From Marimonas lutisalis (GTDB lineage: Bacteria > Pseudomonadota > Alphaproteobacteria > Rhodobacterales > Rhodobacteraceae), in contig NZ_SKCI01000003.1 of assembly GCF_005434965.1 (NCBI RefSeq), positions 434,001 through 498,000 of the forward strand: a stretch of 64,000 nt of DNA, written 5' to 3'. Made by a program: the position numbers and the translations under genes. Under the pieces are notes generated by a model. That model had not been told where the DNA came from and ran no database searches. It saw nothing but the letters and a program-made list of their open reading frames with translations. Of the stretch, positions 32,364 through 50,594 are shown in pieces. Every line of letters begins with the position of its first letter. The first letter of the stretch is position 1.

Positions 32364-32386
32364 TGCGAAATAATGGACAATCGTCC

Positions 32387-32425
32387 TATTTTGGCCCCAT
32401 TTTTCTGCTTCAAGGGGACAAAATA
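32387..32425. promoter_or_regulatory. Inverted repeat upstream of the CpsD-like kinase gene
   Basis: TATTTTGGCCCC at 32387-32398 and GGGGACAAAATA at 32414-32425 pair over 12 bp with one mismatch around 15 bases. A small GGAC/GTCC repeat lies just before it. It sits 127-165 bases before the kinase gene and 24 bases after the previous operon, so it could be a terminator stem or a regulator binding site. No T-run follows. Confidence 0.4.
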
Positions 32426-32551
32426 CGGGCAAGAACCCCGGCGCGCCCCTATGTAGGGCCTGTGTCGGAGCAAGGCAGGACAAAGACGTGAACGGCAACA
32501 GCAGAGCGATGCAGGTCGGTCGGCGGGCGCTCTCCGGTTCGGGGGGCGGCC

Positions 32552-33838
32552 ATGTCTGACAACCAACCCCTGACGCGCAAGTCGCGCCGCCGTCTGGACC
32601 CGGCCGAACGAGACCGCCTGATCGCCGAAATCGCCGAGGCCTCCAGCATCGACGAGACCGTTACACACTTGCGCCAACTGGTCGGCGTGCCCCACGTCAC
32701 CGCCGACGAAGAAGCCGCGGCAGAGATCGAAGCCGAAAACGCGGCCCTTGTGCCGGAGAGCCCCGACGCGCTGTGGACGACGGACGCCTTCGATGACGAG
32801 GCGGACTCGCTTCTGGACGATGAAGAGGCAGAACCCGCCTTCGACTATGCTGAAGAGCCGCGCCACGCCCCGGCCCATCCCACCGCGCCGGACGCTATCG
32901 GCGACGTTTTCCCGGCGGAATCCGGCTTGGACATGTCTCGCGAGATGGCGGAACCCGCTGCCGAGCCGGAAACCCCGGCCGAGATCGAGACACCCGCAGC
33001 ACCGGAGCATGAGCCCCAGTCGATTGCCGAAGCTGAACCCGCACCGGAACCTCAAGCCGTTGCCGAGGACATGCCCTCGCCCTTTGACGAGGACACCCCG
33101 ATGCCGGGCCACGGCTGGGACAGGCTGGCTTCGATCCCGGTGGATGCGCGCCACCTGGAACGCAACCTGATCATCACCGCCAGCCGCCATGATCCCGCGC
33201 ACGGCGCTTTCGACGTGTTGCGCACCCGGCTGGTGCAGACCCTTCTCGAGAATAACTGGCGCCGCGTGGCCATCACCTCGCCCACGCGCGATTGCGGCAA
33301 GACCTTCACCGCGACAAACCTGGCCATTTCGCTGTCGCGCTATGAAAACAACCGCACGATGCTGATGGACATGGACATGCGCAACCCGTCGCTGGCCAAT
33401 GTGCTGGGCGCGTCCGACGTGGGCAGCATGGGTGATTTCCTGCAGGGCAGCGTTCCGGTCACAGACCATTTCAAGCGCCTCGGCCGCAACGCCCTCAATA
33501 TCGGTTCGAACCTCGCCGTCGCCATGAATGACCGGGTCGAACCTTATGCAGCCGAGCTGTTGCAGGACCCGATGACAGCCAGCGTGCTGGAACGGATGAT
33601 GGACGAGCTTGACCCCGACATCGTGCTTTACGACCTGCCCCCGGCCCTGGCCTTCGACGACGTCATCGCCTTCAAGGGGCAGTTCGACGGGGTGCTGATG
33701 GTCGTCGGCGGTGGATTGACCCGGGCCGAGGAGGTGCGCGAGGTCATGCGTCGGCTGGGAGATGACGTACCACTCCTGGGCGTGGTCCTGAACCAGGCCG
33801 AGGGCGAGGATTCGCGCGGCTACACCTACGGCTACTAG
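32552..33838 (+). CDS. CpsD/CapB-type polysaccharide tyrosine-kinase-like ATPase
   Basis: 428 residues. The N-terminal ~200 residues are acidic and Glu/Pro/Ala-rich without a membrane span. A P-loop ATPase follows: Walker A-like ITSPTRDCGKTFTATNLA near residues 238-255, Walker A' MLMDMDMRNPSL, and Walker B-like IVLYDLPPALAFDD. The C-terminus GYTYGY provides the Tyr cluster that bacterial tyrosine kinases autophosphorylate. With Wzz-type chain-length proteins, such kinases control polymer length and export. The Wzz gene is here but convergent rather than in the same operon. Confidence 0.83.
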   Translation: MSDNQPLTRKSRRRLDPAERDRLIAEIAEASSIDETVTHLRQLVGVPHVTADEEAAAEIEAENAALVPESPDALWTTDAFDDEADSLLDDEEAEPAFDYAEEPRHAPAHPTAPDAIGDVFPAESGLDMSREMAEPAAEPETPAEIETPAAPEHEPQSIAEAEPAPEPQAVAEDMPSPFDEDTPMPGHGWDRLASIPVDARHLERNLIITASRHDPAHGAFDVLRTRLVQTLLENNWRRVAITSPTRDCGKTFTATNLAISLSRYENNRTMLMDMDMRNPSLANVLGASDVGSMGDFLQGSVPVTDHFKRLGRNALNIGSNLAVAMNDRVEPYAAELLQDPMTASVLERMMDELDPDIVLYDLPPALAFDDVIAFKGQFDGVLMVVGGGLTRAEEVREVMRRLGDDVPLLGVVLNQAEGEDSRGYTYGY

Positions 33839-33860: not shown

Positions 33861-35171
33861 TCAGGCCCCGGTGGCCCTGCGCGCTACCCCCTGCAACAAT
33901 GCCCCGGCGAAATCCCGGATCAACTGCCACCCGGCCGAGGCCAGTGCCACCAGCGCCACCAGGACCGCGATGGTGATCAACCACCGGCGGCGGCGTTTCT
34001 GAGGCGTCGTCAGGTTGGGGATGGCAACGACGGCCTTCACGTTCAGTTCGCGCTCCAGCTGCGCCCGGGTGCGAATGACCGGGTTCATCATTTCCAGCAG
34101 GAACGCCAGGCCGAGACCCAGGACACCGCTCAAGGCCGCGCCCATCGCGGCCTTTTTCTTGCGGCTGCCTGAAACAGGGTTCTCGGGAACCAGCGCGCTT
34201 TCCAGCACCTCGATCCGCTCGAACTGCTGCTGGCTTTCCAGCACCTGGCCCATCTCGGCCTCGGTCGCGCGGCGGGTGATGACGCTGTATTCATCCTGCA
34301 GCTGTTCCAACTGCCGCGTCAGAACGCCGAACTGACGATCAATTTCCGGCGCACTGGCAATCGCATCCTCGATCTCGGCGATCCGCGTGTTGATCAGGGC
34401 GCGCTGCTCTTCCAGCAGGGCGCCCTGACGCTCGATCACCTCGGCGCGCTGGCGCGTGCGCGTCGCCTCCAGCTCGATCAGCTGTTGCTCGATATCCAGA
34501 AGCGTGCTGCGCAGCGTGCCCATTTCATCGCGCTGCGCCGTGATGCCCGCCGGCAGGTAGGCCGAGTTCTGTTCCTTGAACGCCGCGAGCCGCGCTTCCA
34601 GCGCCGCCATCTCGGCTTCGACCCGCTGCGCTTCGGACTGGTAGAACTCGAGGTTCTGCAGCGCCACGCTCGAGCGCCGCTCACGGTTCAGGCTGACCAG
34701 CTGCGACAGGAATTCATTGGCAACCGCCGCCGCGGTTTCAGGATTGGGATGGGTGACGGAAATCATCATGCCCGTGGGCACGCGCTGCGCACCGAAAGCC
34801 GCGGTCGGATCGGTGATCTGGGTGATTCTCACGGATTCGCGCAGCTGCGCCACCTTCAGGCTCAGCGACAGGTCGGTTTCACTGAACAGGCGGAAGCCGT
34901 CAATCAGGCCGATCAGGTTGTCGCGCGCCATCAGTTGCTGTTCCAGCAGACGCAGGCGGTGGTCGATGGTGGTTCCCCCGGTCGGGCTGGCGGCCGGATC
35001 ATTGATCGTGGGCGTTTCGATCTGCGCCACCGCGGTCGCCTCGTAAACGCGCGGCTGGTTCAGCGTCCACCAGACGGAAAAGGCGCTGCCCAGCATCACC
35101 ACAGCGATGATCAGCATGGCGCGCCGGCGCACCATGTTCAGGAAATCTCCAACCGACTGAATCTGGCTCAT
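33861..35171 (-). CDS. Wzz-type polysaccharide chain-length determinant / co-polymerase
   Basis: 436 residues. N-terminal membrane span (AMLIIAVVMLGSAFSVWW, about 18-35), a large periplasmic region with long heptad-like helices (about 170-300, many Glu/Gln/Arg), and a second span near the C-terminus (LITIAVLVALVALASAGW). The conserved Pro-x2-P near the second span is approximated by VPENPVSGS. It should set the length of the exported polymer together with the CpsD-like kinase, which is encoded convergently. Upstream 250 bases carry no gene and must hold the promoter. Confidence 0.87.
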   Translation of the reverse strand: MSQIQSVGDFLNMVRRRAMLIIAVVMLGSAFSVWWTLNQPRVYEATAVAQIETPTINDPAASPTGGTTIDHRLRLLEQQLMARDNLIGLIDGFRLFSETDLSLSLKVAQLRESVRITQITDPTAAFGAQRVPTGMMISVTHPNPETAAAVANEFLSQLVSLNRERRSSVALQNLEFYQSEAQRVEAEMAALEARLAAFKEQNSAYLPAGITAQRDEMGTLRSTLLDIEQQLIELEATRTRQRAEVIERQGALLEEQRALINTRIAEIEDAIASAPEIDRQFGVLTRQLEQLQDEYSVITRRATEAEMGQVLESQQQFERIEVLESALVPENPVSGSRKKKAAMGAALSGVLGLGLAFLLEMMNPVIRTRAQLERELNVKAVVAIPNLTTPQKRRRRWLITIAVLVALVALASAGWQLIRDFAGALLQGVARRATGA

Positions 35172-35420: not shown

Positions 35421-36104
35421 TTACCGCAGGATCATCACGCTATGGATGATCGTGCCGTGCCAGTCGATCTGCCCGTCCAGCGTCTCTCCGGCGCAAAACG
35501 GCGCCTGGTGATCCAGGAAACGGGCCCGGAATCGCCGGCCGGGAAGGTCGATATCCACCTGCAAATCCGCGAAATCCAACATTTTTCTGGTAATCGGGAA
35601 CTGCAGTTTGTAGGCGCATTCCTTGGCGGAAAATATCAGCCGCGCCGCCCACATCCGGCGCTCCGGGGCGAGACGGTCGATCCACGCCCGTTCGGCCGGC
35701 AGACAGACCATCGGCAACACCTCGCGCGGCAGGTTGGTATTGTCTTCCAGGTCGATGGCCACGGCGCGCAGATCCGCCCCCCGCGCCACCAGGGCGGCAC
35801 AGCCGCCATTGCAATGCGAAATCGACCCGATCAGCCCGTCCGGCCAGACCGGCGCCCGGTTGGCCTCCATCGTCACCGGCGCGGCCAGGTGGCCCAGCGC
35901 CTCCATCGCCCGGTGCGCGGCGCGCCGCCCGGCGGCAAACTCGGCCCGGCGTTTGGGCACCGCGCGGGCCACCGCGGCGGCCTCGGCGGCAAAAAGGCCG
36001 GCATCGCCCGCCGACGGATCCTCGACCGCGACGGCAACCTCGCCGGGCAGGACCGCGCCAAGCGCGGCCTCGAGCTGGTCTAGGACTCCGCTATCAAGCG
36101 CCAT
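35421..36104 (-). CDS. 4'-phosphopantetheinyl transferase (EntD/Sfp type)
   Basis: 227 residues. The family motifs are all visible: GLIGSISHCNG (substrate loop), AIDLEDN (Mg2+-binding Asp/Glu) and LIFSAKECAYKLQFP (the W/F-S-x-K-E-x-x-Y-K motif). It attaches phosphopantetheine from CoA to carrier-protein serines. It starts 2 bases after the NRPS stop on the same strand, so it very likely activates the ACP (Ser1797) and PCP (Ser1433) of this operon. It is closer to EntD-type than AcpS-type enzymes. Confidence 0.9.
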   Translation of the reverse strand: MALDSGVLDQLEAALGAVLPGEVAVAVEDPSAGDAGLFAAEAAAVARAVPKRRAEFAAGRRAAHRAMEALGHLAAPVTMEANRAPVWPDGLIGSISHCNGGCAALVARGADLRAVAIDLEDNTNLPREVLPMVCLPAERAWIDRLAPERRMWAARLIFSAKECAYKLQFPITRKMLDFADLQVDIDLPGRRFRARFLDHQAPFCAGETLDGQIDWHGTIIHSVMILR

Positions 36105-36106
36105 GT

Positions 36107-39100
36107 TCAGGTCCTCGCCATCCGGCGCCTGGCGCGCATTTCACGGCGTCGCGACATGGTATCGTCGCGTGGCGCCTGCGCTGCTGCGGCGTCCGGTCCG
36201 GGTGCGGCCGCCGGGCGCGTCTCCGCGCCCCCGGCCCCGGCCAGTTCGCGCACCCGCGCGGCCAACCCCTCCAGCGTCGGGAAGCGGAAGATATCGGTGA
36301 TCGCCAGCCGCGGCACCGCACAGCGCTCGCGGATCTCGCGGTGCGCCTGCACCGCCAGCAGCGAATGCCCGCCCAGGTCAAAGAAACTGTCGCGCGCGCC
36401 GATCCCGTCAACCCCCAGAACATGGGCCCAAACGGCAGCGATCTGTGCCTCGATGCTGTCGCCGGTCTGCCCCACTGGGGCCGCCGCCGCGCGCGTCGGC
36501 GCCACCTGCATCGGCGCCGGCAGCGCCTTGCGGTCGACCTTCTTGTTCGGCGTCAGTGGAAAGTCCTCCAGCCGCACGAAATGGCTAGGCACCATGAAGT
36601 CGGGCAGGTCGCGGCCCAGCGTCGCCTTCAGCGCGGCCTCATCGGGCGCACGGTCCGACAGCAGGTAGGCCACCAGCCGCACATCGCCGGGCGTGTCTTC
36701 GCGCGCCATCACCACAGCCTGACGGATGCCGGGCTGTTCGTGCAGGCGGGTTTCGATCTCGCCCAGCTCGATCCGATAGCCGCGCAGCTTCACCTGGTGG
36801 TCGGCCCGGCCCAGGAAATCCAGCTTGCCATCGGCGCGCCAGCGCACCAGGTCGCCGGTGCGATACATCCGGCCCCCATGATAGGGGTTCTCGACGAACC
36901 GCTCTGCCGTCAGCGCCGCGCGCTGCCAGTATCCGCGCGTCACGCCGGCACCGCCGATAAACAGCTCGCCGGGCACGCCCACCGGCACAGGCTGCATGTC
37001 CGCGTCCAGAACATAGACCTGCGTGTTGGCGATCGGCGTGCCGATATTGACCACTCCTTCGCCCGGCCCGGCGGTTTCCGTGGTCGACCAGATCGTCGTT
37101 TCGGTCGGGCCATACATGTTCTCGATTCTGGCATCGGTGACCCGGCTGAAATCTTCCACCAGGTTGCCCGGCAGCGCCTCGCCCCCGATCATCAGGTGTT
37201 TCACCCGGCCCAGCGCCATGCGCGATTCCTCGTTCATCGCGATCATCCGGGCCAGGCTGGGGGTGCATTGCAGGTGGCTGACGCCGTGGCGCACGATCTG
37301 CGCCGCGATAGAGAAATCATCCTCGGCCATGCCCTCTGCCAGGTTCGCGCGCCGGTGCACCTCGGCCAGGCGCGGCAGGCTTTCAAGCACCAGGTCCGGC
37401 TCGATGCCATAATCGATCAGGCAGCCGATCTCGGTCACCCCGATCCGTTTGAGTTGTTCGACCCGATCCAGGCAATCCTCGACCGTGCCGAACAGGCCGG
37501 AATCCTCGAAATAGCGCAGGAAGGCGAACTCGAGGATCCCCTCCAGGTCCTCCTCGGTCAGCGTGTCGAGGTCCAGCTCGAACGGGTTGTCCACGCCCTT
37601 GGGCCGTTTGAAGGCCGGGAAGGTCCAGGCATATTGCTTGATCAGCACCGCCGCCGCACCCAGGTAATCCTTCATCGGTCCGCGGGCGATGTCGCGCGCC
37701 TTTTCGCGCGTCTCGTCCACATAGGTGTGCAGCATCAGCGTGACGTTGAAATCCTCGGGGTCATGCCCGTTGTCGCGCAGCGCCTGGTGGTAGATCCCGA
37801 TCTTCTCGCCCACCTCGTCGATCGACTGGCCCAGCAGGTGGGTCAGCACGTTGGCCCCGATCTCGCCCGCCTCTTTCCAGGTCTGCGGATTGCCCGCGAT
37901 GGTCAGCCAGATCGGCAGTTCCTTCGACACCGGGCGCGGCTGGGTCAGCACCGCGCAGTCCTTGCCACTGCCGTTGGGAAATTCCACCGTCTCGCCGCGC
38001 CAGAGCGCGCGCAGCTTTTCGATCGTGTCGAACATCGCCGTCTTGTTGTTGGGCGGCGCGTTTTCCGGGCGCAGGACGAAATCATCGGGCTGCCAGCCGC
38101 TGGCGATGCCCAGCCCCGCGCGCCCCTCGGTCAGATTGTCGATCACCGCCCAGTCCTCGGCGATGCGCAGCGGATGGTGCAGCGGCGCCACGCAAGAGCC
38201 TGAGCGCACGGAAATATTCTGCGTCACCGCCGCCACCGCGGCGCCGGTCACCGCCGGGTTCGGATAGGGCCCGCCGAAGGCCGCGAAATGCCGCTCGGGC
38301 GTCCAGACCGCGGAAAACCCGTTGGCATCAGCGAATTTCGCGCCTTCCAGCAGCATCCGGTATTTCTGCTTGCCCGGGCCGTCATCATTGCCCCAGTAGA
38401 ACAGCCCAAACTCCATGCCCTTGCCGGTCATCGCGATCCGGCCCTGGCTGACCAGCGTGCGGTTTTCGTCGCCCGACAAGACCAGCTTGAACCCGCGCGC
38501 CAGCGTCCAGAAGAGCTCGAGCACCGAGATATCGAAGGAAAGCGAGGTGACGGCCAGCCAGACGCTGCCATCCTCGTGCGGGATACGCCCGTCCATGCCG
38601 GTAAAGAAATTCGACACATTTCGATGTTCGACCATCACGCCCTTGGGCTTGCCGGTCGAGCCGGAGGTATAGATCAGATAGGCCAGGTCCTCGCCGCGCA
38701 CGCCGCTTGCAACATTGTCTTCGGGCGCCTTGGCCAGCCGCGGATCGGCATCCAGCACCAGCCGCGCCGCGCGCCCCTCGGGCAGTTGCCCGGCAATGGC
38801 CTGCGTGGTCACGATCACCGGGGCGCCGCTGTCCTCGACATAAAGCTTGATGCGATCGGCGGGGTAATTCGGATCGAGCGGCACATAGGCGCCCCCCGCC
38901 TTCAGGATACCCAGCGCCCCCACCAGCAGATGGGCGGAACGTTCGGTCGCCAGCCCCACCAACGTGCCGGGTGTCACGCCCATATCCCGCAGCACATGCG
39001 CCACGCGGTTGGCCCGCGCATTCAGCTCGGCATAGCTCAGGCTTTCGCCTTCGAAGACCAGCGCGGTCGCCGCGGGCGTGCGTGCCACCTGCGCCTCGAA

Positions 39101-40660
39101 CGCCTGGTGGATGCAAAGCGCGGGGTCATAGGCGGTTTCCGTGGCGTTCCAGCCGTTCAGCACCAGCTCGCGCTCGGCTTCGGGTAGTACCGGCAGATCG
39201 GCGGGCGCCATATGGGCCGCGCCGTCGATCCCGGCCAGGTGTTCCAGACGCTTCGCCCACAACAGCGCCAGCGCCTCGCTGGCCCGGCGGCCATCATAGT
39301 GGATCGCCTCGGGCGTGATCGTCAGGGCCGTGCCGTCGATCAGACCACCATTGTCGGCCAGCCCGATCTGCGGCATTTGGATCAGGCCGATATCGCGGTC
39401 ACGCGCCTGAAGATCCAGCGCGAAGCACGGGAATTCGCGTGCTTTTTCCAGTTCGTCGCCCGCCCTTAACGGCACCCAGCGGCTGGCATAGCCCGGGGCC
39501 GGTTCCGCGCCGGGCGCGGCATAGGCCAGGTCGGCCACGCCATGTTCGGCCAGCGCGGCGGCCAGACCGGCCGCGAGTGTCAGAACCGCGTCGCCCTGCA
39601 GCCCGGTGGCCAGCGGCACCTGGCCCGCCGCGCCCTGTGCGCCACCGCCCGCGATCTCGGCCGGCGCCAGCGCACGCAGGCGCGCGCGCCAAAGTTCATC
39701 GCCGCGCGCCGCCTGGGCCATTGCCTTGTCCAGCCGCGCGCGCGTCTCTTCGTCAGGCGAGGCCAGCACATCGCCTTCGGCCACCAGCGCGGGCAGCACC
39801 ACGTCGCCGCCGCAGATCGCCGTTACGCCCTGCAAGACCACCGGCACCGTCGCCGTCGCCACGCGAATGGCGCTGTCGTCCACATCCAGCACCGTGCCCG
39901 GCACCGCCTGCGGCGCGGGCTCGCGCGGGATGCGCGCGCCTGAGACCAGCAGAACCTGCCCGCCCGCCTCGATCTTGGGCGCGCTCAGCGGGTTCCAGTA
40001 AGGCCCGTGATCCAGCGCGCGCACCATGCGCAGGATCTCGTCCGCGGGTTTGGCGAAATCGATCCTTGCGGCTGCTTCGGGCCGTTTCAGCCGGCCGAAA
40101 TAGCTGCGCTGGCCCAGGTCCTGCCCCGTCACCGGCACCTCGGCGCGCGACAGCTTCTCCAGCACCGCCCCGAACGAGCCGATGGCGGCCTCGTAGCACT
40201 TGGTGTTCAACGTCAGCGCGGTATCGGCCTCGGTGATGTCGAACATCACCTGCTCGATGATCCCGCCGGTGTCGGCCTTGGCCTCGATCATGTGCCAGGT
40301 GATGCCGTGCTTCCGCTCCCCGTTCATCTGCGCCCAAACCGGCGCGTTCAGCCCGGCATAGGCGGGCAGCGGGCCATCGTGGAAATTCACTGCCCCGCGT
40401 TTCGGCAGGGCCAGAACCGCATCGGGCAGCATGTCGAGATTGGCAATCGACAAGAGCCAGTCATGCGGCCGATCGGCCAGCCGTTCGGCCAGCCCCGCGC
40501 CGGGCGCGATCACCGGTAGGCCGCGGCCCTCGGCCCAGCCCGCGATGTCGGGGTTGCGTGTCACCACCGCCGCCAGCCGGTGACCGGCCTCAAGCAGCTT
40601 TTCGCTGCACTGGATGGCCAGGCTTTCGTTGCCGATGACGATCATGGTTTGCGCAGACAT
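36107..40660 (-). CDS. NRPS: formyltransferase - adenylation (with inserted luciferase-like monooxygenase) - PCP
   Basis: 1517 residues. Residues 1 to about 300 are a methionyl-tRNA-formyltransferase-like domain with catalytic Asn92, His94 (NFHDGPLPAYAG) and Asp130 (KADTGGII). A short stretch at 440-480 looks like the end of a condensation domain. The adenylation domain begins near 515 (YTSGSTGKPKG at 664) and is interrupted after A4 (SFDISVLE) by a flavin-dependent luciferase-like monooxygenase (about 748-1100; FGLFYWGND, GIASGWQPDDF). It resumes before A5 (NMYGPTETT, 1181) and ends at NKKVDR (1372). PCP 1400-1475, Ser1433 in LGGHS. The pocket reads D710-I-L-Q-M-G-M-I-W-K1374, close to the glycine code. 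No thioesterase. ATG 40660 overlaps the GT2 stop. Confidence 0.92.
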   Translation of the reverse strand: MSAQTMIVIGNESLAIQCSEKLLEAGHRLAAVVTRNPDIAGWAEGRGLPVIAPGAGLAERLADRPHDWLLSIANLDMLPDAVLALPKRGAVNFHDGPLPAYAGLNAPVWAQMNGERKHGITWHMIEAKADTGGIIEQVMFDITEADTALTLNTKCYEAAIGSFGAVLEKLSRAEVPVTGQDLGQRSYFGRLKRPEAAARIDFAKPADEILRMVRALDHGPYWNPLSAPKIEAGGQVLLVSGARIPREPAPQAVPGTVLDVDDSAIRVATATVPVVLQGVTAICGGDVVLPALVAEGDVLASPDEETRARLDKAMAQAARGDELWRARLRALAPAEIAGGGAQGAAGQVPLATGLQGDAVLTLAAGLAAALAEHGVADLAYAAPGAEPAPGYASRWVPLRAGDELEKAREFPCFALDLQARDRDIGLIQMPQIGLADNGGLIDGTALTITPEAIHYDGRRASEALALLWAKRLEHLAGIDGAAHMAPADLPVLPEAERELVLNGWNATETAYDPALCIHQAFEAQVARTPAATALVFEGESLSYAELNARANRVAHVLRDMGVTPGTLVGLATERSAHLLVGALGILKAGGAYVPLDPNYPADRIKLYVEDSGAPVIVTTQAIAGQLPEGRAARLVLDADPRLAKAPEDNVASGVRGEDLAYLIYTSGSTGKPKGVMVEHRNVSNFFTGMDGRIPHEDGSVWLAVTSLSFDISVLELFWTLARGFKLVLSGDENRTLVSQGRIAMTGKGMEFGLFYWGNDDGPGKQKYRMLLEGAKFADANGFSAVWTPERHFAAFGGPYPNPAVTGAAVAAVTQNISVRSGSCVAPLHHPLRIAEDWAVIDNLTEGRAGLGIASGWQPDDFVLRPENAPPNNKTAMFDTIEKLRALWRGETVEFPNGSGKDCAVLTQPRPVSKELPIWLTIAGNPQTWKEAGEIGANVLTHLLGQSIDEVGEKIGIYHQALRDNGHDPEDFNVTLMLHTYVDETREKARDIARGPMKDYLGAAAVLIKQYAWTFPAFKRPKGVDNPFELDLDTLTEEDLEGILEFAFLRYFEDSGLFGTVEDCLDRVEQLKRIGVTEIGCLIDYGIEPDLVLESLPRLAEVHRRANLAEGMAEDDFSIAAQIVRHGVSHLQCTPSLARMIAMNEESRMALGRVKHLMIGGEALPGNLVEDFSRVTDARIENMYGPTETTIWSTTETAGPGEGVVNIGTPIANTQVYVLDADMQPVPVGVPGELFIGGAGVTRGYWQRAALTAERFVENPYHGGRMYRTGDLVRWRADGKLDFLGRADHQVKLRGYRIELGEIETRLHEQPGIRQAVVMAREDTPGDVRLVAYLLSDRAPDEAALKATLGRDLPDFMVPSHFVRLEDFPLTPNKKVDRKALPAPMQVAPTRAAAAPVGQTGDSIEAQIAAVWAHVLGVDGIGARDSFFDLGGHSLLAVQAHREIRERCAVPRLAITDIFRFPTLEGLAARVRELAGAGGAETRPAAAPGPDAAAAQAPRDDTMSRRREMRARRRMART

Positions 40661-41673
40661 CACGATTTTCCTTCCCGCAGGGCGGCCTTGCCGCCCGGTT
40701 TGCCGCCGCGTGCCCCCGGCGCGGCAAAAAGTGCCTTCAGGTCGTGGGCGATCAGGTGCCGCAGGAAATGCGGCGGATCGACCAGCCCGCGCCGCTGCAG
40801 CAGCGACCGCAGGCGATAGAACAGGCCCCCCGCCACATGCGCCAGCGTCGCCAGCGCGGCATAGGCGCGCCCGTGGTTCTTCACGAAGTAGTGCCACCGG
40901 CTGTTCAGCCAGTATTCCGGAATCCGGTCCCAGGCCTTCATGCCCGTGCTGACCGAACCGATATGCGTGACCCGGCTTTCCACCACGTAATGCGTGGGCC
41001 AGCCCGCCAGCGCGGCGCGGCGGCACAGGTCGGTTTCTTCGAAATAGAGGAAAAACGTCTCGTCGAAGAGCCCGATCTCATCCAGCACCCCGGCCCGCAT
41101 CATCATGCTGGCGCCTGCCAGCCAGTCGACCGCGCCGCTCTGATCGGGCACCGGCAGCGGCACCACGTGATCGGCCAGCATCCGCGTCACCGGACCGAAC
41201 CGGATCGCGCCTTCCAACTCGCTCAGCACCCCGGGAAAGCGGAAAGCAGTGACATGCGTGTCCTGTTCCGGCCCATGTATATAGCTGCCCGCGAACCCGA
41301 CCTTGGGATGACGCTCCAGATAGTCCAGAAGGTGGCGGATCGCGCCGTCGTCGGGAAAGGCGTCGGAGTTCAGGATATAGTAGAAATCGGGTGTCGTGCC
41401 GTCACTCATTCCCGCACGGATGCCGAAATTCATCCCTGCGCCGAACCCGCCATTGCGCCCCGATTGCAGCACCCGCACCTTCTTGTCGGTCTCGGCCCAG
41501 CCCTTCTGTGCTACGCCCTGCTGCAAGGTTTCGAACGACCCGTCACCGCTGTCATTGTCGACGATCACCAGCTCGCCCTCGATCCCCTCCATCTCGCGCA
41601 GCGCGGCCTCGGCCGCCTCCAGCGTCATCGCGGCGGTGCGATAGTTCAGGATGATGGTCAGAACCCGTGCCAT
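40660..41673 (-). CDS. Glycosyltransferase family 2 (rhamnosyltransferase-like) within the PKS-NRPS operon
   Basis: 337 residues, GT-A fold. TIILNYRTAAMTLEAAEAAL and ELVIVDNDSGDGS at the start, NGGFGAGMNFGIR, the DxD-like YYILNSDAFPDDG, and LFDETFFLYFEETDLCRRA as the ED-rich catalytic segment; this pattern is common in WbbL-type rhamnosyltransferases. It starts 3 bases after the PKS stop and overlaps the NRPS start by ATGA, so it is translated together with both megasynthases. That suggests the peptide-polyketide product or its carrier lipid is glycosylated, but the gene may simply belong to the polysaccharide pathway. Confidence 0.87.
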   Translation of the reverse strand: MARVLTIILNYRTAAMTLEAAEAALREMEGIEGELVIVDNDSGDGSFETLQQGVAQKGWAETDKKVRVLQSGRNGGFGAGMNFGIRAGMSDGTTPDFYYILNSDAFPDDGAIRHLLDYLERHPKVGFAGSYIHGPEQDTHVTAFRFPGVLSELEGAIRFGPVTRMLADHVVPLPVPDQSGAVDWLAGASMMMRAGVLDEIGLFDETFFLYFEETDLCRRAALAGWPTHYVVESRVTHIGSVSTGMKAWDRIPEYWLNSRWHYFVKNHGRAYAALATLAHVAGGLFYRLRSLLQRRGLVDPPHFLRHLIAHDLKALFAAPGARGGKPGGKAALREGKS

Positions 41674-41676
41674 ACC

Positions 41677-44600
41677 CTACTCCGCCGCATGCGGCTTCAG
41701 CGGAAGTGCTGCCACCCGCGCGGCCCGCGCCGCCGGGTTCTCGGCATCCTCGATCGCGCGTTTCATCCGCGCGGCCAGAACCCGCACATTGGGCTCCAGC
41801 ACCATGGAATCGTGATCGCCCGGCACCTCGACCACCTCGACCAGCGGCGCATATGGCGTCCAGTCGTTGTCATGGGTGACATAGGCGCGCTCCGAGTTGA
41901 CCCAGCGGCCCTCGCCCACCTGCCACTTGCCCACAAGCGGCGGCCGGAACAGCGCCAGCGGCCCATCCCAGGGTTTCAGCTCGTATTGCGCCACCGCGCC
42001 CAGGAAGGCCTGTTCGATCGCGGTGTTGTGGAACGCGGTCTCGGTGGCCTCGGCGGGCGCGGCCACCGGCGCGCGGCGTTTCTCAATTTCCCAGCGGACG
42101 CGGCGCGCCAGCCATGTGAACGGATAGGCAAAGCCGCCCGCCTTCAATTCCTGCAGCTGGATGCGCAGCCGGTCCCCGCCGCTCAGCGGGCGGCGCTGCG
42201 GCAGCGGCGTGTCCAGCATCACCAGCATCGCCACCTCGTCGCCCGCCGCCTTCAGCTGCTGGGCGATTTCATAGGCGATGATGCCGCCGCCGGAAAACCC
42301 GCCCAGCATATAGGGCCCCTTGGGTTGCACCTGGCGGATCTCAACCAGGTAATCGCGCGCGGCCTCGGGGATGGTGCGGTGCGGTTCGTCTTCGCCGTAA
42401 AGGCCACGGGCCTGCAGGCCATAGAAGGGACGATCGGTGCCCAACAGATGCGCCAGGTGCCGCAGGTTCAGCACGTTGCCGAACATCCCCGCCACCAGGA
42501 AGAAGGGCCGCCGCGGCCCGCCTTCACCGGCATGCATCGGCACGATATGGGTGAACCGCCGTTCCGGGCTTTTCGGCACGTCGCCGGCCGGGGCACCACC
42601 TTCGCTCTCGGCGCTGACCCCTTCGGCGGCGATCATTTCCGCACATTTGCGAATGGTCGGCGCCTCGAACAGCACCGAGATCGGGAAATCCACGTCCCAG
42701 GTTTTCTTCACCTGCGCAAAGAGCCGCACGGCGATCAGGGAATGCCCGCCCAGATCAAAGAAATTGTCCTCGGCGCCCACCTGTTCCACGCCCAGAAGCG
42801 CGCTCCAGAACTGCGCCAGCTTCTGCTCGATCGCCCCCTCGGGCGGCACGTAATCATTGTCCAGATCCGGCCGCTGGAAGGTCTGCGCCTCGCCCTCCTC
42901 GGCGCCGGTATCGGCGGCCTGGCGGATCAGGTCATGCAGGTCGAGCGAGGAGACCACCACCTGGCTTGCGCCCATGCCCAGCGCGCGCAGGAACGCCTCG
43001 GCGCCTTCCTCGGGGCGAATGCCCTGGCCCAGGTTGTGGCGCAGGCGCTCCTCGGCGGGCGAAAGCGGGCGGTTGGCCTGCGTGTCGGGGAATTCCAGGT
43101 CCCTGGCCGATGGCTCGGGGATCAGACGCGCGTCCGCCTCGATCCGCCGGATCGAGAAATTGTGCACCTCGACGCAGACATTGCCCTGCGCGTCGCAGAT
43201 CGTGATATCGAAACTGGCCGCGCCCGCCGCGGCGCGGTTTTCGCCCGCGTTGCGCACCCAGCTGACAACCTCGCCCGGCAGCGGGCGGAACACCCGCACC
43301 GCGCCGTAGGACACAGGCACCCATAGATGCGACGGCTCATAGCCCTCAATCAGTTCCATCGCCCAGCCGGTGCCCAGGTCCATCAGGCCCGGCGAGAGGC
43401 GATAGCCCTCCTCGCGCAGCGCCTCGGGCAGGCGCAGCCGGGCCACGCCTTCCCCGTCGCCCAGCGCCGTACGGGTCAGAACCCGCCAATGCGCGCCGAA
43501 ATTCAGATGCGCCTCCTGCGGGCTGCGCAGCGTGCGGCCCGGCTCGGCCTCGCGCTCCGCGCCACAACGCGCCTCGAGCGTGGCCAGGTCCACCGGATCC
43601 GGCGCGGCCATCGGCAGGATCGCCAACGTCGCCTGTGCGTTGGTCTCGAACCCGTGCCGCTCGTCCACGGTGCGGGCCGATTGCACGTTCATCGCGTATC
43701 CCAGATCATCACGGCGCAGGGTCACCCGCATTTCGCGCGGCGCATGATCGCTGACATCCAGCGGGCGCAGGAAATATAGGTCCCGTATCTCGAACGGCCC
43801 GGTTTCCCCTTGCGCCTCAAGGGCTTGCGCCGCGATTTCCAGATAGCCGGTGCCGGGCAGCAACGCCTCGTTCTCGGCCGTGCGATGCTCGCCCACCACC
43901 CAATGCGCGGTGGACAGCTCGGTCTTGAAAAGGCGGTTGCCGTCACGGTCGAAGGTCGCCGCGTCCAGAAGCGGCGGATCAACCTGATGCTCACTCTGGT
44001 CGGGCTCCTCCTGCCCCACGCCCAGCGCATCGGCGGCCATGCCGACCTCGGCCCAGATGCCCCAGTTGATGGCCACGACGCGCGTCTTGTCGTCCGCGCG
44101 GGACTTGGCATAGGCGTTCAGGTATTCGTTTGCCGCCACGTAATCGACCTGCCCCACCGGCGCCGTCACGGTGGACGAGGATGAAAACAGCACCATGAAA
44201 TCCAGGGAACCATCCGGGAATAGCTGGTCCAGAACCTGCGTGCCATGGATTTTCGGCGTGAACACGTCCTCGACCGTCATCGGCGATTTCGCCAGCAGCG
44301 GCTCATCCGCGATGACGCCGGCGGCATGGATCACCCCGTTGACCGGGCCAAAGCGCATCTGCACCTGCTCCAGCGCACCGCGCATCTCCTCCACGTTCGA
44401 CACGTCGGCGGCGACAACCATCACCTGCCCGCCCAGCGATTCCAGCTTTTCGACCGCGGCAATCCGCCTCGCGGTGGCGTCATGCGCGCCGAACCGGCGG
44501 GCATAGCCCTCCCATTCGTCACGCGGCGGCAGCGGCGTACGCGCCATCAGCACGATCCGCGCATGGCTCTCGCGCACCAGCCGCTCGGCCAGGGTCAGCC

Positions 44601-47600
44601 CGATGCCGCCGAACCCGCCGGTGATCAGGTAAACGCCCTCCTGTCGCAGCGCGACAGGCGCCGCGCCCTCGGCCTCCAGCGCCTTCGGCCGGAACACCTG
44701 TTCATAGCGCCGCGCCCCGCGCAGCGCCGCCACGGCGCTGGCCGGTTTCGCGAATATCTCTTCCAGAACCCGCTCGGCCAACTCCGACAGGTCGGCGGTG
44801 CCCCGGCGCGGAACCTCGGGCAATTGCAGGTCCAGCGTTGTCACCGTGACGCCCGGCAATTCACGCGGGATCACCCGCGCCGGGCCCTGCATGGTCAGCT
44901 TCTCCGGATACTCCAGCGTCTCGCCCTTCACCTGGGCCGCGCCGGTGGTGAAACAGGTGATATGCACGCCGGGCCATTCCGCCCCGGCCATCGCCTGCGC
45001 CAGGAACATCAGCGAATAAAAGCCCTGTTCCTGGTTGCGATGGAAGAAAGACGATCCGGGGCGATGCTCCTCGCCCCGTGTCACCAGCCAGAAATGCGCG
45101 ATCCGCGTCGGCACCCAGTCCTTCGCACCCAGCGCCGCGATCAGCGCGTCATAGCCTTCGCGCCCGCGTTCGGGGCTCAGGACATAACCGCCCTCGCCAT
45201 CCGGGCCAAAGGCATCGCCTGCCCGCACGGTCATCACATCCTGGCCCGCCGCGCGCAGCCGATCCACCGCCGCCCGGCCCAGCCCGGTGTCATCGACAAA
45301 GACCAACCAGCGTTCCCGAGGCGCATCCGTCAGTGTGCTGACATCCACGTCGCAATCCGCCGCCACCGGCTTCCACGCGGGCACATAGCCCCAGTCCTCC
45401 AGGACATCCGTGCGCATCAAATGCGTCGGCACCGCCTCGGCGCCGCGCGCCTCGCCGGGTTCGATGAAATAGGGTTTGCGCTGGAAGGCATGGCCGGGCA
45501 GCACCACGCGGTTGCGCCGCGCCGCGCCCCAGATCTGGCTCCAGTCGAAATCGCCGCCCATGGCCCAGACCCGGCCCAGCTGCGCGATGAAATATTCGTC
45601 ATCCGGCATGTGGTCATCCGGGTGGCGCAGGGCTGAAATCACCTGCTCGCGATGCACGTCCGGGTGCTGGGCGGCAAGCGAAGACAATGCCTTGCCCGGC
45701 CCCATCTCGATGTAGATCCGCTCGCGCCGCGCGCTCAGCCGGTCGATGCAATCGGCAAAGAGCACCGTGCCGCGCAGATGCGCCACCCAGTAATCGGGGT
45801 CGGTCGCCTGTTCGGGCGTGATTTCCTGCCCCGTCCGGTTCGAGATGAACGGGATCCGCGGCGGATTGAGCGGGATCGCCCGCAGGTAATCGCCAAAACG
45901 CGACAGGATCGGCTCAAGCATCCGGGAATGCGCGGCAATGTCGATCTGGATGCGCTGACAGTCGATGTCCTGCGCCTCCAGCCGTTGCTGCAGGTCGTCC
46001 AGCGCCGCCTGTGGGCCACTGGCCACGCTCAGCCCCGGCGCATTCACGCCGGCCAGGTCCAGGTCATCGCCCAGATGCGCCTTCAACTCTTCGGCCGGCA
46101 ATGAGACCGACAGCATGCCACCCGCCGGCACCGTATCAAAGAGCGTGCCGCGCAGATGCACCAACCCGATGCAATCCTCGAAACTCATCACGCCAGCCAG
46201 GCAGGCCGCCGTGTTCTCGCCCATCGAATGGCCAACCAGCACGTCCGGCGCCACACCCCAGCTCATCCACAGCTGCGCCAGCGCGTATTCGGTGATCATG
46301 ATCAGCGGCAGTTGCACCGACGGGCGCTTCAGCGCCGCGTCCGCCGCCGCCTCCTGGCCCTCTTCGGGCAGCCACAGCGCTTTCAGGTCATAGTCGAGCC
46401 GCGGTTGCAGCACCTCAAGGCCCCGGTCCATCCACTCGGCAAAGACCGGCTCGGTCTCGTACAGATCGCGGGCCATGCCGGCATATTGCGCCCCGCCGCC
46501 CGGAAACATGAACACGGTATCGGGCCGGTCGCCCGCCACCGCATGGGTAAACACCCGGCGCGGATCGTTTTCTTCCAGCATATCAGCGGCTTGGACTGCG
46601 TTCTCCGCCACCAGAACGCGGCGTTTCTCGAATGCGCGACGGCCTTCTTTCAGCGTCCAGGCGACATCGGCCAGCGGCTCGTCGGGGTTGGCGCGCAGAT
46701 GCGCCGCCAGCCGCTTCGCACCCTCGTCCAGCGCCGCCTTCGAGCGCGCCGACAGAACCAGCAACTGGAACGGCCAATCGCTTTCTTCGCTGGCCGCGCG
46801 CTCGGGCGCTTCCTCCAGCACCACATGCGCATTGGTGCCGCCCACGCCCAGGCTGTTCACACCCGCCCGGCGCGGCCCCTTGCGCCGGCCCCAGGGCGTC
46901 AGCGTGTCGTTCACCCGGAACGGCGAATGCTCGAAATCGATCGTCGGGTTCGGGCTCTCGTATCCCAGCGATGGCGGCATCTGCCTGTGATGCAGCGCCA
47001 GCGAGGTCTTGATCAGGCTCGCCACCCCGGCAGCCGTGTCCAGGTGGCCGATATTGGTTTTCACCGATCCGATCCGGCAATACCCGGTCTCATTCGTGGT
47101 CCGGCGGAATGCCTCGGTCAGGGCGGCCACCTCGATCGGGTCGCCCAGGTAGGTGCCGGTGCCGTGGCATTCCACGTAATCCACCGTGTCGGCGGGCACC
47201 TCTGCAATCGCCTGCGCCTCGGCCACGGCGGCCGCCTGCCCGTCCACGCTGGGCGCCAGGTACCCGGCCTTGGCCGCGCCGTCATTGTTGACCGCGCTGC
47301 CCTTGATCACAGCCCAGATGTGATCGCCATCGGCGATCGCATCCTCCAGCCGGCGCAGCACCACCGCACCCGCACCCGATCCGAACACCGTGCCCTCGGC
47401 GCGGGCGTCGAACGCGTGGCAATGGCCGTCGGGCGACAGGATCTCGCCCTCCTTGTAGACATAGCCATGCCCCTGCGGCAGCTCGATCGTCACGCCGCCC
47501 GCGATCGCCATGTCGCATTCGCCATTCAGCAGCGCCTGCGCCGCGTAGTGCGTCGCCACCAGCGAGGTGGAACAGGCCGTCTGCAGCGAAATCGACGGGC

Positions 47601-48129
47601 CTTTCAGGTCGAACACGTGGCTCACCCGGGTCGACAGGAAATCCTTGTCATTGCCCGTGTGACGCAACAGGAACATCCCCACCTGGTCCACCAGGTCGGG
47701 GTTCGAACAGATGTTGAAATAGAAATAGCTGCCCATCCCGCAGCCCGCGAACACCCCGATGGGGCCATCGACGTTTTCCGGCACATGGCCCGCGTTCTCG
47801 AACGCCTCCCAGGCCACTTCCAGGAACTGCCGGTGCTGCGGGTCAAGGATCGCGCTTTCCTTGGGGCTGAACCCGAAAAACTCGCCGTCGAAATACTCGA
47901 ACCGGTCCAGAAGCGCGGCATGGGGCACGTAATCGGGACGGTTCAGCAGCGCCTCGGACACGCCCGCCTCGCGCATCTCCTCGGCGCTCAGCCTGCGAAT
48001 GGATTCGACGCCATCGCGCAGGTTTTGCCAATACTCGCCAATCGTCGCCGCACCCGGAAGATGCGCCGCCATGCCGACGATCGCGATATCGTTCTCGCCG
48101 GGCGTAAGGGGTTCGCCGCTTTGCGTCAT
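41677..48129 (-). CDS. Type I polyketide synthase, one module: KS-AT-KR-DH-ACP-TE
   Basis: 2150 residues. KS (about 12-440): Cys186 in TACSTS, His322 in HGTGT, His362 in NIGH. AT (about 535-830): Ser635 in GHSMGE, His734 in IAAHSRM, more like malonyl than methylmalonyl AT. KR (about 910-1370): NADPH loop ITGGFGGIG at 1169, Tyr1330 and Asn1334. Hot-dog DH (about 1400-1660): His1415 and Asp1584, but the usual HxxxGxxxxP is altered (HRTAENEALLP). ACP 1765-1835, Ser1797. TE (1855-2125): Ser1946 in GFSGGG, Asp1973, His2106. DH lies after KR, the reverse of the common order. ATG 48129 is preferred over TTG 48132. It is the first gene of the PKS-GT2-NRPS-PPTase operon. Confidence 0.93.
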   Translation of the reverse strand: MTQSGEPLTPGENDIAIVGMAAHLPGAATIGEYWQNLRDGVESIRRLSAEEMREAGVSEALLNRPDYVPHAALLDRFEYFDGEFFGFSPKESAILDPQHRQFLEVAWEAFENAGHVPENVDGPIGVFAGCGMGSYFYFNICSNPDLVDQVGMFLLRHTGNDKDFLSTRVSHVFDLKGPSISLQTACSTSLVATHYAAQALLNGECDMAIAGGVTIELPQGHGYVYKEGEILSPDGHCHAFDARAEGTVFGSGAGAVVLRRLEDAIADGDHIWAVIKGSAVNNDGAAKAGYLAPSVDGQAAAVAEAQAIAEVPADTVDYVECHGTGTYLGDPIEVAALTEAFRRTTNETGYCRIGSVKTNIGHLDTAAGVASLIKTSLALHHRQMPPSLGYESPNPTIDFEHSPFRVNDTLTPWGRRKGPRRAGVNSLGVGGTNAHVVLEEAPERAASEESDWPFQLLVLSARSKAALDEGAKRLAAHLRANPDEPLADVAWTLKEGRRAFEKRRVLVAENAVQAADMLEENDPRRVFTHAVAGDRPDTVFMFPGGGAQYAGMARDLYETEPVFAEWMDRGLEVLQPRLDYDLKALWLPEEGQEAAADAALKRPSVQLPLIMITEYALAQLWMSWGVAPDVLVGHSMGENTAACLAGVMSFEDCIGLVHLRGTLFDTVPAGGMLSVSLPAEELKAHLGDDLDLAGVNAPGLSVASGPQAALDDLQQRLEAQDIDCQRIQIDIAAHSRMLEPILSRFGDYLRAIPLNPPRIPFISNRTGQEITPEQATDPDYWVAHLRGTVLFADCIDRLSARRERIYIEMGPGKALSSLAAQHPDVHREQVISALRHPDDHMPDDEYFIAQLGRVWAMGGDFDWSQIWGAARRNRVVLPGHAFQRKPYFIEPGEARGAEAVPTHLMRTDVLEDWGYVPAWKPVAADCDVDVSTLTDAPRERWLVFVDDTGLGRAAVDRLRAAGQDVMTVRAGDAFGPDGEGGYVLSPERGREGYDALIAALGAKDWVPTRIAHFWLVTRGEEHRPGSSFFHRNQEQGFYSLMFLAQAMAGAEWPGVHITCFTTGAAQVKGETLEYPEKLTMQGPARVIPRELPGVTVTTLDLQLPEVPRRGTADLSELAERVLEEIFAKPASAVAALRGARRYEQVFRPKALEAEGAAPVALRQEGVYLITGGFGGIGLTLAERLVRESHARIVLMARTPLPPRDEWEGYARRFGAHDATARRIAAVEKLESLGGQVMVVAADVSNVEEMRGALEQVQMRFGPVNGVIHAAGVIADEPLLAKSPMTVEDVFTPKIHGTQVLDQLFPDGSLDFMVLFSSSSTVTAPVGQVDYVAANEYLNAYAKSRADDKTRVVAINWGIWAEVGMAADALGVGQEEPDQSEHQVDPPLLDAATFDRDGNRLFKTELSTAHWVVGEHRTAENEALLPGTGYLEIAAQALEAQGETGPFEIRDLYFLRPLDVSDHAPREMRVTLRRDDLGYAMNVQSARTVDERHGFETNAQATLAILPMAAPDPVDLATLEARCGAEREAEPGRTLRSPQEAHLNFGAHWRVLTRTALGDGEGVARLRLPEALREEGYRLSPGLMDLGTGWAMELIEGYEPSHLWVPVSYGAVRVFRPLPGEVVSWVRNAGENRAAAGAASFDITICDAQGNVCVEVHNFSIRRIEADARLIPEPSARDLEFPDTQANRPLSPAEERLRHNLGQGIRPEEGAEAFLRALGMGASQVVVSSLDLHDLIRQAADTGAEEGEAQTFQRPDLDNDYVPPEGAIEQKLAQFWSALLGVEQVGAEDNFFDLGGHSLIAVRLFAQVKKTWDVDFPISVLFEAPTIRKCAEMIAAEGVSAESEGGAPAGDVPKSPERRFTHIVPMHAGEGGPRRPFFLVAGMFGNVLNLRHLAHLLGTDRPFYGLQARGLYGEDEPHRTIPEAARDYLVEIRQVQPKGPYMLGGFSGGGIIAYEIAQQLKAAGDEVAMLVMLDTPLPQRRPLSGGDRLRIQLQELKAGGFAYPFTWLARRVRWEIEKRRAPVAAPAEATETAFHNTAIEQAFLGAVAQYELKPWDGPLALFRPPLVGKWQVGEGRWVNSERAYVTHDNDWTPYAPLVEVVEVPGDHDSMVLEPNVRVLAARMKRAIEDAENPAARAARVAALPLKPHAAE

Positions 48130-48268: not shown

Positions 48269-49636
48269 TCAGCCCGCGCCTGCCCCCGCCAGGGCAGAAA
48301 TGGAATCGGCGTTCACCCAGAAGGCCAGCGCAATGAGCGCAAGGCCAGCCAGTGCCAGCGCCCCGTCATGCAGCCGGTCCCAGGCCCCTGTCGCCCTGCT
48401 CAGCCAGATCACCACCGGATAGACCGCCAGCATCGCGATCCCCTGCCCGATCAGCGCGCCGAACAGGCCCGCCAGTTCCAGCCCGGCATAAAGGCAGATC
48501 ACCATCAGCACCGCCTTCGACGCCGCGAGAACGAAGAACCGCTTGCTGTCGCCCGCGGCCAGCGCCGCCTGGTCATAGGTCAGCGCGATGATCTGCGGCA
48601 CCTGCATGCAGGCGATCACCACCGTCACCGCGCCCGCCATCGCATAGCGCGGATCATACAGCAGATCGACGATCCACACCCCGCCCAGCGCCAGGATCGC
48701 CAGCAGGATCAGAAGCGCGCCCGACACCGCAAAGCGCATCTTGCGCAGCCGCGCGAAATTCTCGGCACTCTGGCCCGGCGGCCATTCGCGGTAGATCGGG
48801 ATCAGGATCCGACGCACCAGGACGCCCCCCATCAAGAGCGGGAACGAGGCCAGGAAAAACCCGATATTGTAGACCCCGAACTGATCCAGCGGCAGGTATT
48901 TCCCGATCAGGAGCTTGTCGGCCTGCGTCAGCAGAAACCCCGCCACCGTGCTCAGGAAGATCCATTTGCCGAAATTGATCAGCTCATCCGCCGCCCGCCG
49001 TTCCCAGCGGAACCGGTTCCGCACCCCGGGCAAAAGCGCCGTGTAGATCACCAGCTGCGCCGCCGCCCCGATCACCCCCGAAATGACCAGCGCCCAGACC
49101 GATTGCCACCACCAGGCAAGGATGATCGCGGCCAGAATCCCGATCACCTGATTGAAGATATCAAGCGCGGTCAGCCGCCCCACCCGCAAATGCCGTTGCG
49201 CCGTGTCCATCCGCGTCGGGTTGAACCCGGTCAAAATCAGCGTCAGCGCCGATACCGGCAGCATCACGGCGAGCTCCGGCACCTCGTAAAGCAGCGACAC
49301 CGGATAGGCGATGGCGCAGGCCACGGCAAAAAGGCTAAACCCCCGCATCACCTGGATCGTCCAGGCGGTGTTCAGGAAATCCTTGTCGTCGCCGCGCTCC
49401 GATTGCATGATCGCGGGCGTCACGCCCACATCGGAGAACTGGTTCAGACCCATCAGGAAAACGGTGATCAGCGCCATCATCCCGAACGCCTCGGGAAACA
49501 GCAGCCGCGTCAGGATCAGGTTCGAGACGAGCCGCAGGCCCTGGCTCGTGCCAAAGCCGAACACGGTCAGCCCGGCGCTGCGCACCGCACGCGCCAGAAC
49601 GCTTTCGCCGCCCAGGATGCGCGCGGCAAGGGTCAT
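48269..49636 (-). CDS. Wzx-type oligosaccharide flippase (polysaccharide biosynthesis family)
   Basis: 455 residues, about 12-14 predicted membrane spans, of the MATE/MVF-like polysaccharide transporter family. RSAGLTVFGFGTSQGLRLVSN and FGMMALITVFLMGLNQFSDVG are typical of the N-terminus. It should flip undecaprenyl-linked repeat units across the inner membrane. It overlaps the upstream GT2 stop by 4 bases. A 139-bp gap separates it from the PKS, so the PKS operon may have its own promoter. Confidence 0.87.
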   Translation of the reverse strand: MTLAARILGGESVLARAVRSAGLTVFGFGTSQGLRLVSNLILTRLLFPEAFGMMALITVFLMGLNQFSDVGVTPAIMQSERGDDKDFLNTAWTIQVMRGFSLFAVACAIAYPVSLLYEVPELAVMLPVSALTLILTGFNPTRMDTAQRHLRVGRLTALDIFNQVIGILAAIILAWWWQSVWALVISGVIGAAAQLVIYTALLPGVRNRFRWERRAADELINFGKWIFLSTVAGFLLTQADKLLIGKYLPLDQFGVYNIGFFLASFPLLMGGVLVRRILIPIYREWPPGQSAENFARLRKMRFAVSGALLILLAILALGGVWIVDLLYDPRYAMAGAVTVVIACMQVPQIIALTYDQAALAAGDSKRFFVLAASKAVLMVICLYAGLELAGLFGALIGQGIAMLAVYPVVIWLSRATGAWDRLHDGALALAGLALIALAFWVNADSISALAGAGAG

Positions 49637-50490
49637 CGTCCGCGGCTCCAGCCCTCGTCGCCTTTCAGTTTCGTCGCCAGCGCCACGCCGGCATAAACGG
49701 CGAAACTGGGCGGGTTGCGCAGGAACAAGAGCAGCTTGCCCAAGATGCCCAGCGCCGGCTTGTCATCGTTGCGCGCCAGTTGCGGATATGTGCCCAGCAC
49801 CTCGCGCACCCCGGCATCCTGCCGCGCGCGCACCTTCACCAGGTTCGCCCAGCCCTCGACGAGCGGCCAGTCATAGGTGGCCGCGACGGCCACGCGTTCC
49901 TTGGGGGAAAACAGCAGCCGCACGAACGTGTCGTCGGAAATGATGTTCGGGAATTGCTTCCAGCGCCGCCGCCCTTCGCCGTTCACCGCGAAGAACCCGC
50001 AGCCGGGCACGCCCTGCGTCATGAACGGCACGCGCGCGTAAGTCTGCGCATAAAGCTTTGAAATGGCAGATCGCGGCGGCGCGATGTTCACGCGCCCGCT
50101 GACATAGGCCGGGCGATTGATGCGCAATGCGCGGCCCACCTGGTCCAGAAGCGGTTTCGATACCACCACGTCGGCATCCAGGTAAGCGCGCGAGCGGAAT
50201 TTCGCGTTCCGGTCGCCCTCGTTCAGCGCCGCGGGCTTGCTGCCCTTGGCCAGCTCCAACACCTTGAAATCCCAGCCCATCGCCGCAAACCCCCGCGCAT
50301 AACCACGCGCCATGCCCGCGGTATCGTCGGAACAACCATTGGCCACCACGATCACCTCGACCGGCATCGGCAACGGGATCGAGCCCGACCCCGCCCCGGG
50401 CTTCGGATCCGAGGCCAGGATCGCCTTCAGGCAGCGCCCGATCAGTGCTGCTTCGTTACTGGCTGGAATGATGATGCTCAGCCCCGGCAT
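49633..50490 (-). CDS. Glycosyltransferase family 2
   Basis: 285 residues. LSIIIPASNEAALIGRCLKAIL and the metal-binding SRAYLDADVVVSKPLLDQVG identify GT2, with ISDDTFVRLLFS as the later acidic motif. A hydrophobic C-terminal stretch (ILGKLLLFLRNPPSFAVYAGV) may associate with the membrane. ATG 50490 is the conserved start; the frame is open further but without GT2 features. It is coupled to the flippase gene and diverges from the GT4 gene at 50595. Confidence 0.85.
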   Translation of the reverse strand: MPGLSIIIPASNEAALIGRCLKAILASDPKPGAGSGSIPLPMPVEVIVVANGCSDDTAGMARGYARGFAAMGWDFKVLELAKGSKPAALNEGDRNAKFRSRAYLDADVVVSKPLLDQVGRALRINRPAYVSGRVNIAPPRSAISKLYAQTYARVPFMTQGVPGCGFFAVNGEGRRRWKQFPNIISDDTFVRLLFSPKERVAVAATYDWPLVEGWANLVKVRARQDAGVREVLGTYPQLARNDDKPALGILGKLLLFLRNPPSFAVYAGVALATKLKGDEGWSRGR

Positions 50491-50594
50491 GTCACGCACC
50501 CCCCAGCCAAGGCTTGCCCTGCACGGCCCTCTCGGTGCAGGGTCGCAGCGCGCCACTGCACGGCGCGTCCCGATTGCTGGAATCAAGTGTCAAA

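Follow-up and report, generated by a model that had tools for sequence, protein, structure and literature searches.

A PKS-NRPS gene block in a Wzx/Wzy-type polysaccharide locus of Rhodobacteraceae and its possible role in polymer acylation

Within a polysaccharide locus of a 4.32-Mb Rhodobacteraceae-type genome lie four minus-strand genes, nearly without gaps and in the order polyketide synthase (PKS), family 2 glycosyltransferase (here GT2*), non-ribosomal peptide synthetase (NRPS) and Sfp-type phosphopantetheinyl transferase (PPTase). Domain content, residue conservation, the coupling of the genes and their co-inheritance with polysaccharide genes were computed directly. We propose, with a probability of roughly one half, that these genes form a dedicated assembly line of two proteins within the Wzx/Wzy pathway, the acyl product of which would be put on the repeat unit and exported with the polymer.

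A four-gene block among polysaccharide genes

The window, i.e. the whole stretch of 64,000 nucleotides that was analysed, corresponds to positions 434001-498000 of contig 8, and carries the block at 35421-48129 (window numbering throughout):

35421-36104, minus strand: Sfp-type 4'-phosphopantetheinyl transferase (profile match)
36107-40663 (or from 40660), minus strand: NRPS initiation module (Pfam/NCBIfam, AlphaFold model)
40660-41673, minus strand: GT2* glycosyltransferase, between PKS and NRPS (Pfam)
41677-48129, minus strand: one-module PKS (Pfam/NCBIfam)

These coordinates agree with an earlier note on this DNA, as do the 3-base gap between PKS and GT2* and the 2-base spacing between NRPS and PPTase. 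The ATGA overlap that the note had given for the GT2*/NRPS junction proved incorrect: the two genes meet either at TGATG with an ATG start (1 base in common) or at GTGA with a GTG start (4-base overlap). The PKS start is the ATG at 48129, with a TTG one codon upstream. Chance open reading frames were ruled out by the Pfam matches and the conserved catalytic residues. A simple promoter scan of the two gaps flanking the block gave no match, and a terminator scan of the same gaps returned one terminator-like match (35362-35344), which is about chance level.

Polysaccharide genes span about 20.5 to 60.2 kb of the window:

20551-33838, plus strand: left part of the locus, with AT3-SGNH O-acyltransferase, GMC oxidoreductase, SDR, Gfo/Idh/MocA, epimerase, GT4 and GT2 genes
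24973-25980, minus strand: WecG/TagA/CpsF glycosyltransferase
32552-33838, plus strand: tyrosine autokinase-like (CpsD/EpsG) protein
33861-35171, minus strand: Wzz-like chain-length determinant (TIGR03007, 115 bits, below cut-off)
48269-49636, minus strand: Wzx-type flippase (PF13440/PF01943)
49633-50586, minus strand: a further GT2 glycosyltransferase (GT2b), overlapping the flippase gene
50514-59438: right part of the locus, with GT4 genes and a 1054-aa hydrolase-like protein
56702-58087, minus strand: putative Wzy polymerase, hydrophobic and without a family match, named from context and co-occurrence with the block
59432-60244, minus strand: WbaP-like undecaprenyl-phosphate sugar phosphotransferase (PF02397)

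The window thus contains a Wzx/Wzy-type set, comprising an initiating sugar phosphotransferase, a flippase, a chain-length protein and several glycosyltransferases. Flippase and Wzz genes do flank the block as previously described, the former assigned by Pfam and the latter by the sub-cut-off TIGR03007 match. Since GT2b and Wzx lie upstream on the same strand as the block, the transcript may exceed the four genes.

Several neighbours deserve mention in their own right. The 1054-aa protein (51809-54973) lacks any Pfam or NCBIfam match and recurs in many related loci; by eye its start is of the SGNH type, its middle resembles a glycoside hydrolase and its end looks RTX-like. Possibly it is an enzyme secreted to trim or modify the polymer. 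At 30201-32363, a Gfo/Idh/MocA oxidoreductase is fused to an NAD-dependent epimerase/dehydratase (720 aa), an arrangement conserved in window-type loci. The cassette of AT3-SGNH acyltransferase, GMC oxidoreductase and SDR (20551-24906), conserved in many such loci, might acylate or oxidise the polymer further. Adjoining the polysaccharide locus is a phenylacetate degradation cluster (6462-18398) with an aldehyde dehydrogenase-MaoC fusion, PaaA/PaaC-type proteins, a thiolase, a ligase and a TetR protein.

Domains and predicted chemistry of the assembly line

The two large proteins are built as follows (residue numbers, except for the gene segment):

PKS: KS 14-445, AT 540-816, KR about 912-1362, DH 1387-1669, ACP 1770-1834, TE from 1878 (Pfam/NCBIfam)
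NRPS: formyltransferase (F) about 1-283, predicted half condensation domain about 285-515, A 522-735 and 1109-1381, monooxygenase about 751-1102, PCP 1407-1471
37358-38410, minus strand: segment of the NRPS gene for the inserted luciferase-like monooxygenase (TIGR04020)

The PKS is a one-module enzyme, as had been noted before, with the domain order KS-AT-KR-DH-ACP-TE. For the NRPS, the formyltransferase, A and PCP domains of the earlier description are present, but two parts had been overlooked. One is a complete monooxygenase domain of the MupA/Atu3671 type (TIGR04020, 473.5 bits versus a cut-off of 244.45) that splits the A domain between motifs A4 and A5 and rules out an ordinary F-A-PCP module. 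The other is the stretch between F and A, for which the AlphaFold model (pLDDT 93) matches condensation domains; judged by this model it is a half condensation (C) domain, and not the unfamiliar additional domain that had been considered at this position.

The assembly line appears to be intact. Among 63 NRPS and 72 PKS relatives, the catalytic residues of F, PCP, KS, AT, KR, DH, ACP and TE are nearly always retained, and the core W, R and H of the monooxygenase are kept in 62 of 64 aligned sequences, missing only where the domain is deleted. In Paracoccus marcusii (13607-14623 of its locus), the formyltransferase is annotated as a gene of its own upstream of an A-monooxygenase-PCP gene.

Among the NRPS relatives, both the F active site (N-H-D) and the A-domain code are conserved. 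The latter reads D-I-L-Q-M-G-M-I-W-K in the window and DILQ(M/L/F/Y)GMIW plus the motif A10 lysine in the relatives, with free variation at position 299 only. A survey of A domains lists DILQLGMIWK as common to four glycine domains that bear a MOX monooxygenase (PMC12283262). As the window code differs from this by a single residue, glycine is the predicted substrate.

Four PP-binding carriers were found in the genome, namely those of the PKS and the NRPS and two small ACPs, and the PKS and NRPS are its sole megasynthases. The PPTase of the block is the genome's sole Sfp-type enzyme, the one other PF01648 match being a small AcpS-like frame on contig 9. This bears out the view that the block has a dedicated PPTase. 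The PKS begins with its KS, and the genome is without any other starter module.

Co-occurrence with polysaccharide genes across genomes

Counted at ≥ 45% identity and leaving out a separate megasynthase in genome G143, the NRPS occurred in 71 of 198 Rhodobacteraceae genomes, about a third of the sampled genera; these genomes were chosen one per genus, which lowers dependence by descent but leaves some of it. The putative Wzy was found in 74 of the 198, with 67 genomes having both genes, 4 the NRPS only and 7 Wzy only (Fisher p 2e-39). Polysaccharide genes (Wzx, Wzz, Wzy-like, WecG, sugar transferase or glycosyltransferase) flanked the block in 19 of 20 sampled neighbourhoods, the one miss being the different megasynthase of G143, and likewise in 39 of 39 further neighbourhoods in which the contig reached past the block. 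Two layouts recur: one resembles the window, and in the other Wzy-like, WecG and GT2 genes lie immediately upstream of the PKS. The 19 test loci gave 5-11 matches to the polysaccharide proteins of the window, and ten unrelated NRPS loci from the same family, taken for comparison, gave 0-2. Pairwise distances, uncorrected for species descent, correlated at 0.86 for PKS-NRPS and 0.80 for PKS-Wzx. Collectively, the tie to the polysaccharide locus that had been suggested from the window holds in co-occurrence, neighbourhood and control comparisons.

Named examples of the block in polysaccharide loci are Ruegeria conchae, Ruegeria sp. SCSIO 43209, Parasedimentitalea marina and Paracoccus marcusii. 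At a strict threshold, a search of 190 genomes across the class recovered the NRPS in the same family only. PKS, NRPS and PPTase also lie in polysaccharide loci of Aminobacter sp. MSH1 and Shinella zoogloeoides, and NRPS plus PKS within those of Novosphingobium and Hyphomicrobium. One genome (G125) has a second PKS and NRPS copy in an exosortase (EpsH)-type polysaccharide locus, and XrtD is found near the block of R. conchae. In Aliiroseovarius sp. M344 an NRPS relative sits beside a long NRPS/PKS gene and VPLPA-CTERM and XrtD exosortase genes; this surface system is a different one, though perhaps related.

In almost every block-bearing polysaccharide locus of Rhodobacteraceae, GT2* is placed between PKS and NRPS (62 aligned relatives). 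It was present in 66 of the 198 genomes, all of them NRPS-positive (66 both, 5 NRPS only, 0 GT2* only; Fisher p 4e-47), and marks the polysaccharide-bound form of the block within this family. Its distances, again uncorrected for species descent, correlated with those of Wzx (0.85) and PKS (0.75), and less with those of WecG (0.38) and GT2a (0.29), which are other glycosyltransferases of the locus; this tracking of Wzx and PKS fits addition of the group before the flippase step. The AlphaFold model of GT2* (pLDDT 93) has a GT-A fold, and the fold search returned general GT-A matches with no pointer to donor or acceptor.

That GT2* sits between the two megasynthase genes, and was not found without them in 198 genomes, could also mean that it glycosylates the acyl product, the neighbouring machinery then flipping or secreting a conjugate that stays separate from the polymer. 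We regard such a glycosylated small molecule as quite unlikely, because the putative Wzy, chain-length and phosphoglycosyltransferase genes are kept in the same locus, as for a polymer, and because GT2* resembles an ordinary GT-A enzyme.

Some genomes carry the pair elsewhere. In the Rhodobacteraceae genome G184, PKS, NRPS and PPTase, lacking GT2*, lie amid MttB-like, glutamine-synthetase-like and other unrelated genes; four further NRPS-positive genomes are without GT2*, and their assemblies are fragmentary there. In two PKS-rich Acidobacteriota (Acanthopleuribacter pedis and a Holophagae genome), the stretches read around NRPS and PKS contain no polysaccharide genes, and in a planctomycete the two genes are on separate contigs with no polysaccharide genes within reach. 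These cases indicate that the PKS-NRPS pair can serve without a polymer. The complete four-gene block was not found away from polysaccharide genes in the related genomes; only the GT2*-less versions of G184 and the Acidobacteriota are so placed.

The same cases speak for a free small molecule as the product, be it a signal, a metallophore or an antibiotic, with no more than shared regulation linking it to the polysaccharide; it might be a signal for matrix production or a compound retained in the matrix. The TE would be able to release a free acid, and relatives with the A-monooxygenase-PCP order are found in other natural-product-like clusters (Nostoc, Streptomyces). We nonetheless consider a free product unlikely: the block is found inside polysaccharide loci in dozens of genera and several orders, the partner coupled to it is a glycosyltransferase, and genes for an efflux pump, a receptor, a regulator or resistance were not observed to accompany it.

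Degraded versions bear on how the steps are linked. In genome G084 the NRPS lacks the monooxygenase, and the PKS lacks all of its DH as well as the KR tyrosine; F, A, PCP, KS, AT, ACP and TE are intact. In G096 the losses comprise the monooxygenase, KR tyrosine, DH histidine, F residues and PCP serine, and an in-frame stop interrupts the PKS, so that this assembly line is decaying. These two cases, which are perhaps related, point to a chemical link between the oxidation and the KR/DH steps. In a third genome (G009), otherwise well assembled, PKS and NRPS are broken by frame changes, through sequencing error or decay.

Proposed pathway, known systems and implications

A KS-AT-KR-DH module performs one extension, followed by reduction and dehydration. 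In the pathway that we propose, the PPTase would activate the carriers of both NRPS and PKS. The NRPS would then load glycine, which the F domain would N-formylate, and the inserted flavin monooxygenase would at some stage oxidise the glycine alpha carbon; breakdown of an alpha-hydroxylated formylglycine may also occur. The PKS would extend the acyl unit with one malonyl and carry out reduction (KR) and dehydration (DH), after which the TE would free a C4-type formamido acid or pass it to an acceptor. This acceptor is most probably a sugar within the lipid-linked repeat unit, one that GT2* adds or recognises. The exported polymer would thus bear the acyl group. Glycine as starter, the order of steps, the product and its attachment are what we infer from the domains and their context. 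F domains are reported to act on the PCP-bound amino acid (PMC4504003). The very small formylated amino-acid/polyketide unit envisaged earlier is backed by the domain content and the glycine code. No acyltransferase fit to install the group was common to every locus, and the transfer step would rest on the TE or an unseen enzyme.

Conglobatin CongA and oxazolomycin OzmO likewise feed a PKS from an F-A(Gly)-PCP initiation module (PMC4504003). In contrast to both, the window line has a single PKS module, an A domain that houses a monooxygenase, a half C domain and a polysaccharide context; no oxazole-forming cyclodehydratase (CongE/OzmP) was among the Pfam-scanned genes at 20.5-64 kb. A domains with a MupA/Atu3671 (MOX) insert share the TIGR04020 domain and a near-identical glycine code with the window NRPS. 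The MOX of PMC12283262 cleaves glycine to leave a terminal amide, whereas the window module starts a chain after a formyltransferase.

Type I PKS genes are known in capsule clusters (PMC3908369), and for the RkpA/WcbR type it has been proposed that the product anchors or primes the polysaccharide as a terminal acceptor. Such a role is very unlikely here: the predicted product is far too short for a lipid role, the PF02397 sugar phosphotransferase of the usual undecaprenyl route is present, and no ABC capsule exporter was found among the scanned window genes. Compared by description, RkpA/WcbR resemble our PKS as type I enzymes in a surface-polysaccharide cluster; the window differs in its Wzx/Wzy-type locus, NRPS partner, TE and PPTase.

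Acylation of the repeat unit, as we favour, has a parallel in the O-antigen locus of Flavobacterium psychrophilum, in which wfpC-G are thought to make a polyketide-like 3,5-dihydroxyhexanoyl group that is put on an amino sugar (PMC6519341). In that locus the type II enzymes are discrete, the ACP is free and the transferase is PglD-like, with neither NRPS nor formyl-glycine, whereas the window PKS is one type I protein. An oxopyrrolidine acid on an amino sugar has also been described (PMC3210612). The claim that a megasynthase product as polysaccharide decoration would be new was overstated, given the precedents of capsule-locus PKSs and O-antigen acyl groups (PMC3908369, PMC6519341). Within the open-access literature, which is not the whole literature, we found no report linking such a PKS-NRPS pair to a polysaccharide; a PKS and an NRPS of Phaeobacter inhibens (Inhi_1972 and Inhi_1974, by number one gene apart) are listed without function (PMC4062626). 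Formylglycine-started lines, monooxygenase inserts, capsule-locus PKSs and polyketide-like O-antigen acyl groups are each known, and it is their combination that we did not find described in that literature.

Tentatively, and somewhat short of an even bet, we extend this reading beyond the window: the NRPS-PKS pair may be a regular component of an alphaproteobacterial polysaccharide pathway and, in many marine genera, equip the repeat unit with a formylglycine-derived, flavin-oxidised acyl group prior to export. Genome mining takes such clusters for orphan secondary metabolites and seeks free compounds. Were the product built into a polymer, such a search would miss a whole class present in about one-third of the sampled Rhodobacteraceae genera. 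Our data suggest that the polymer carries an unusual chemical decoration, which, if true, would tie assembly-line enzymology to the biofilm and surface chemistry of bacteria living on algae and particles.
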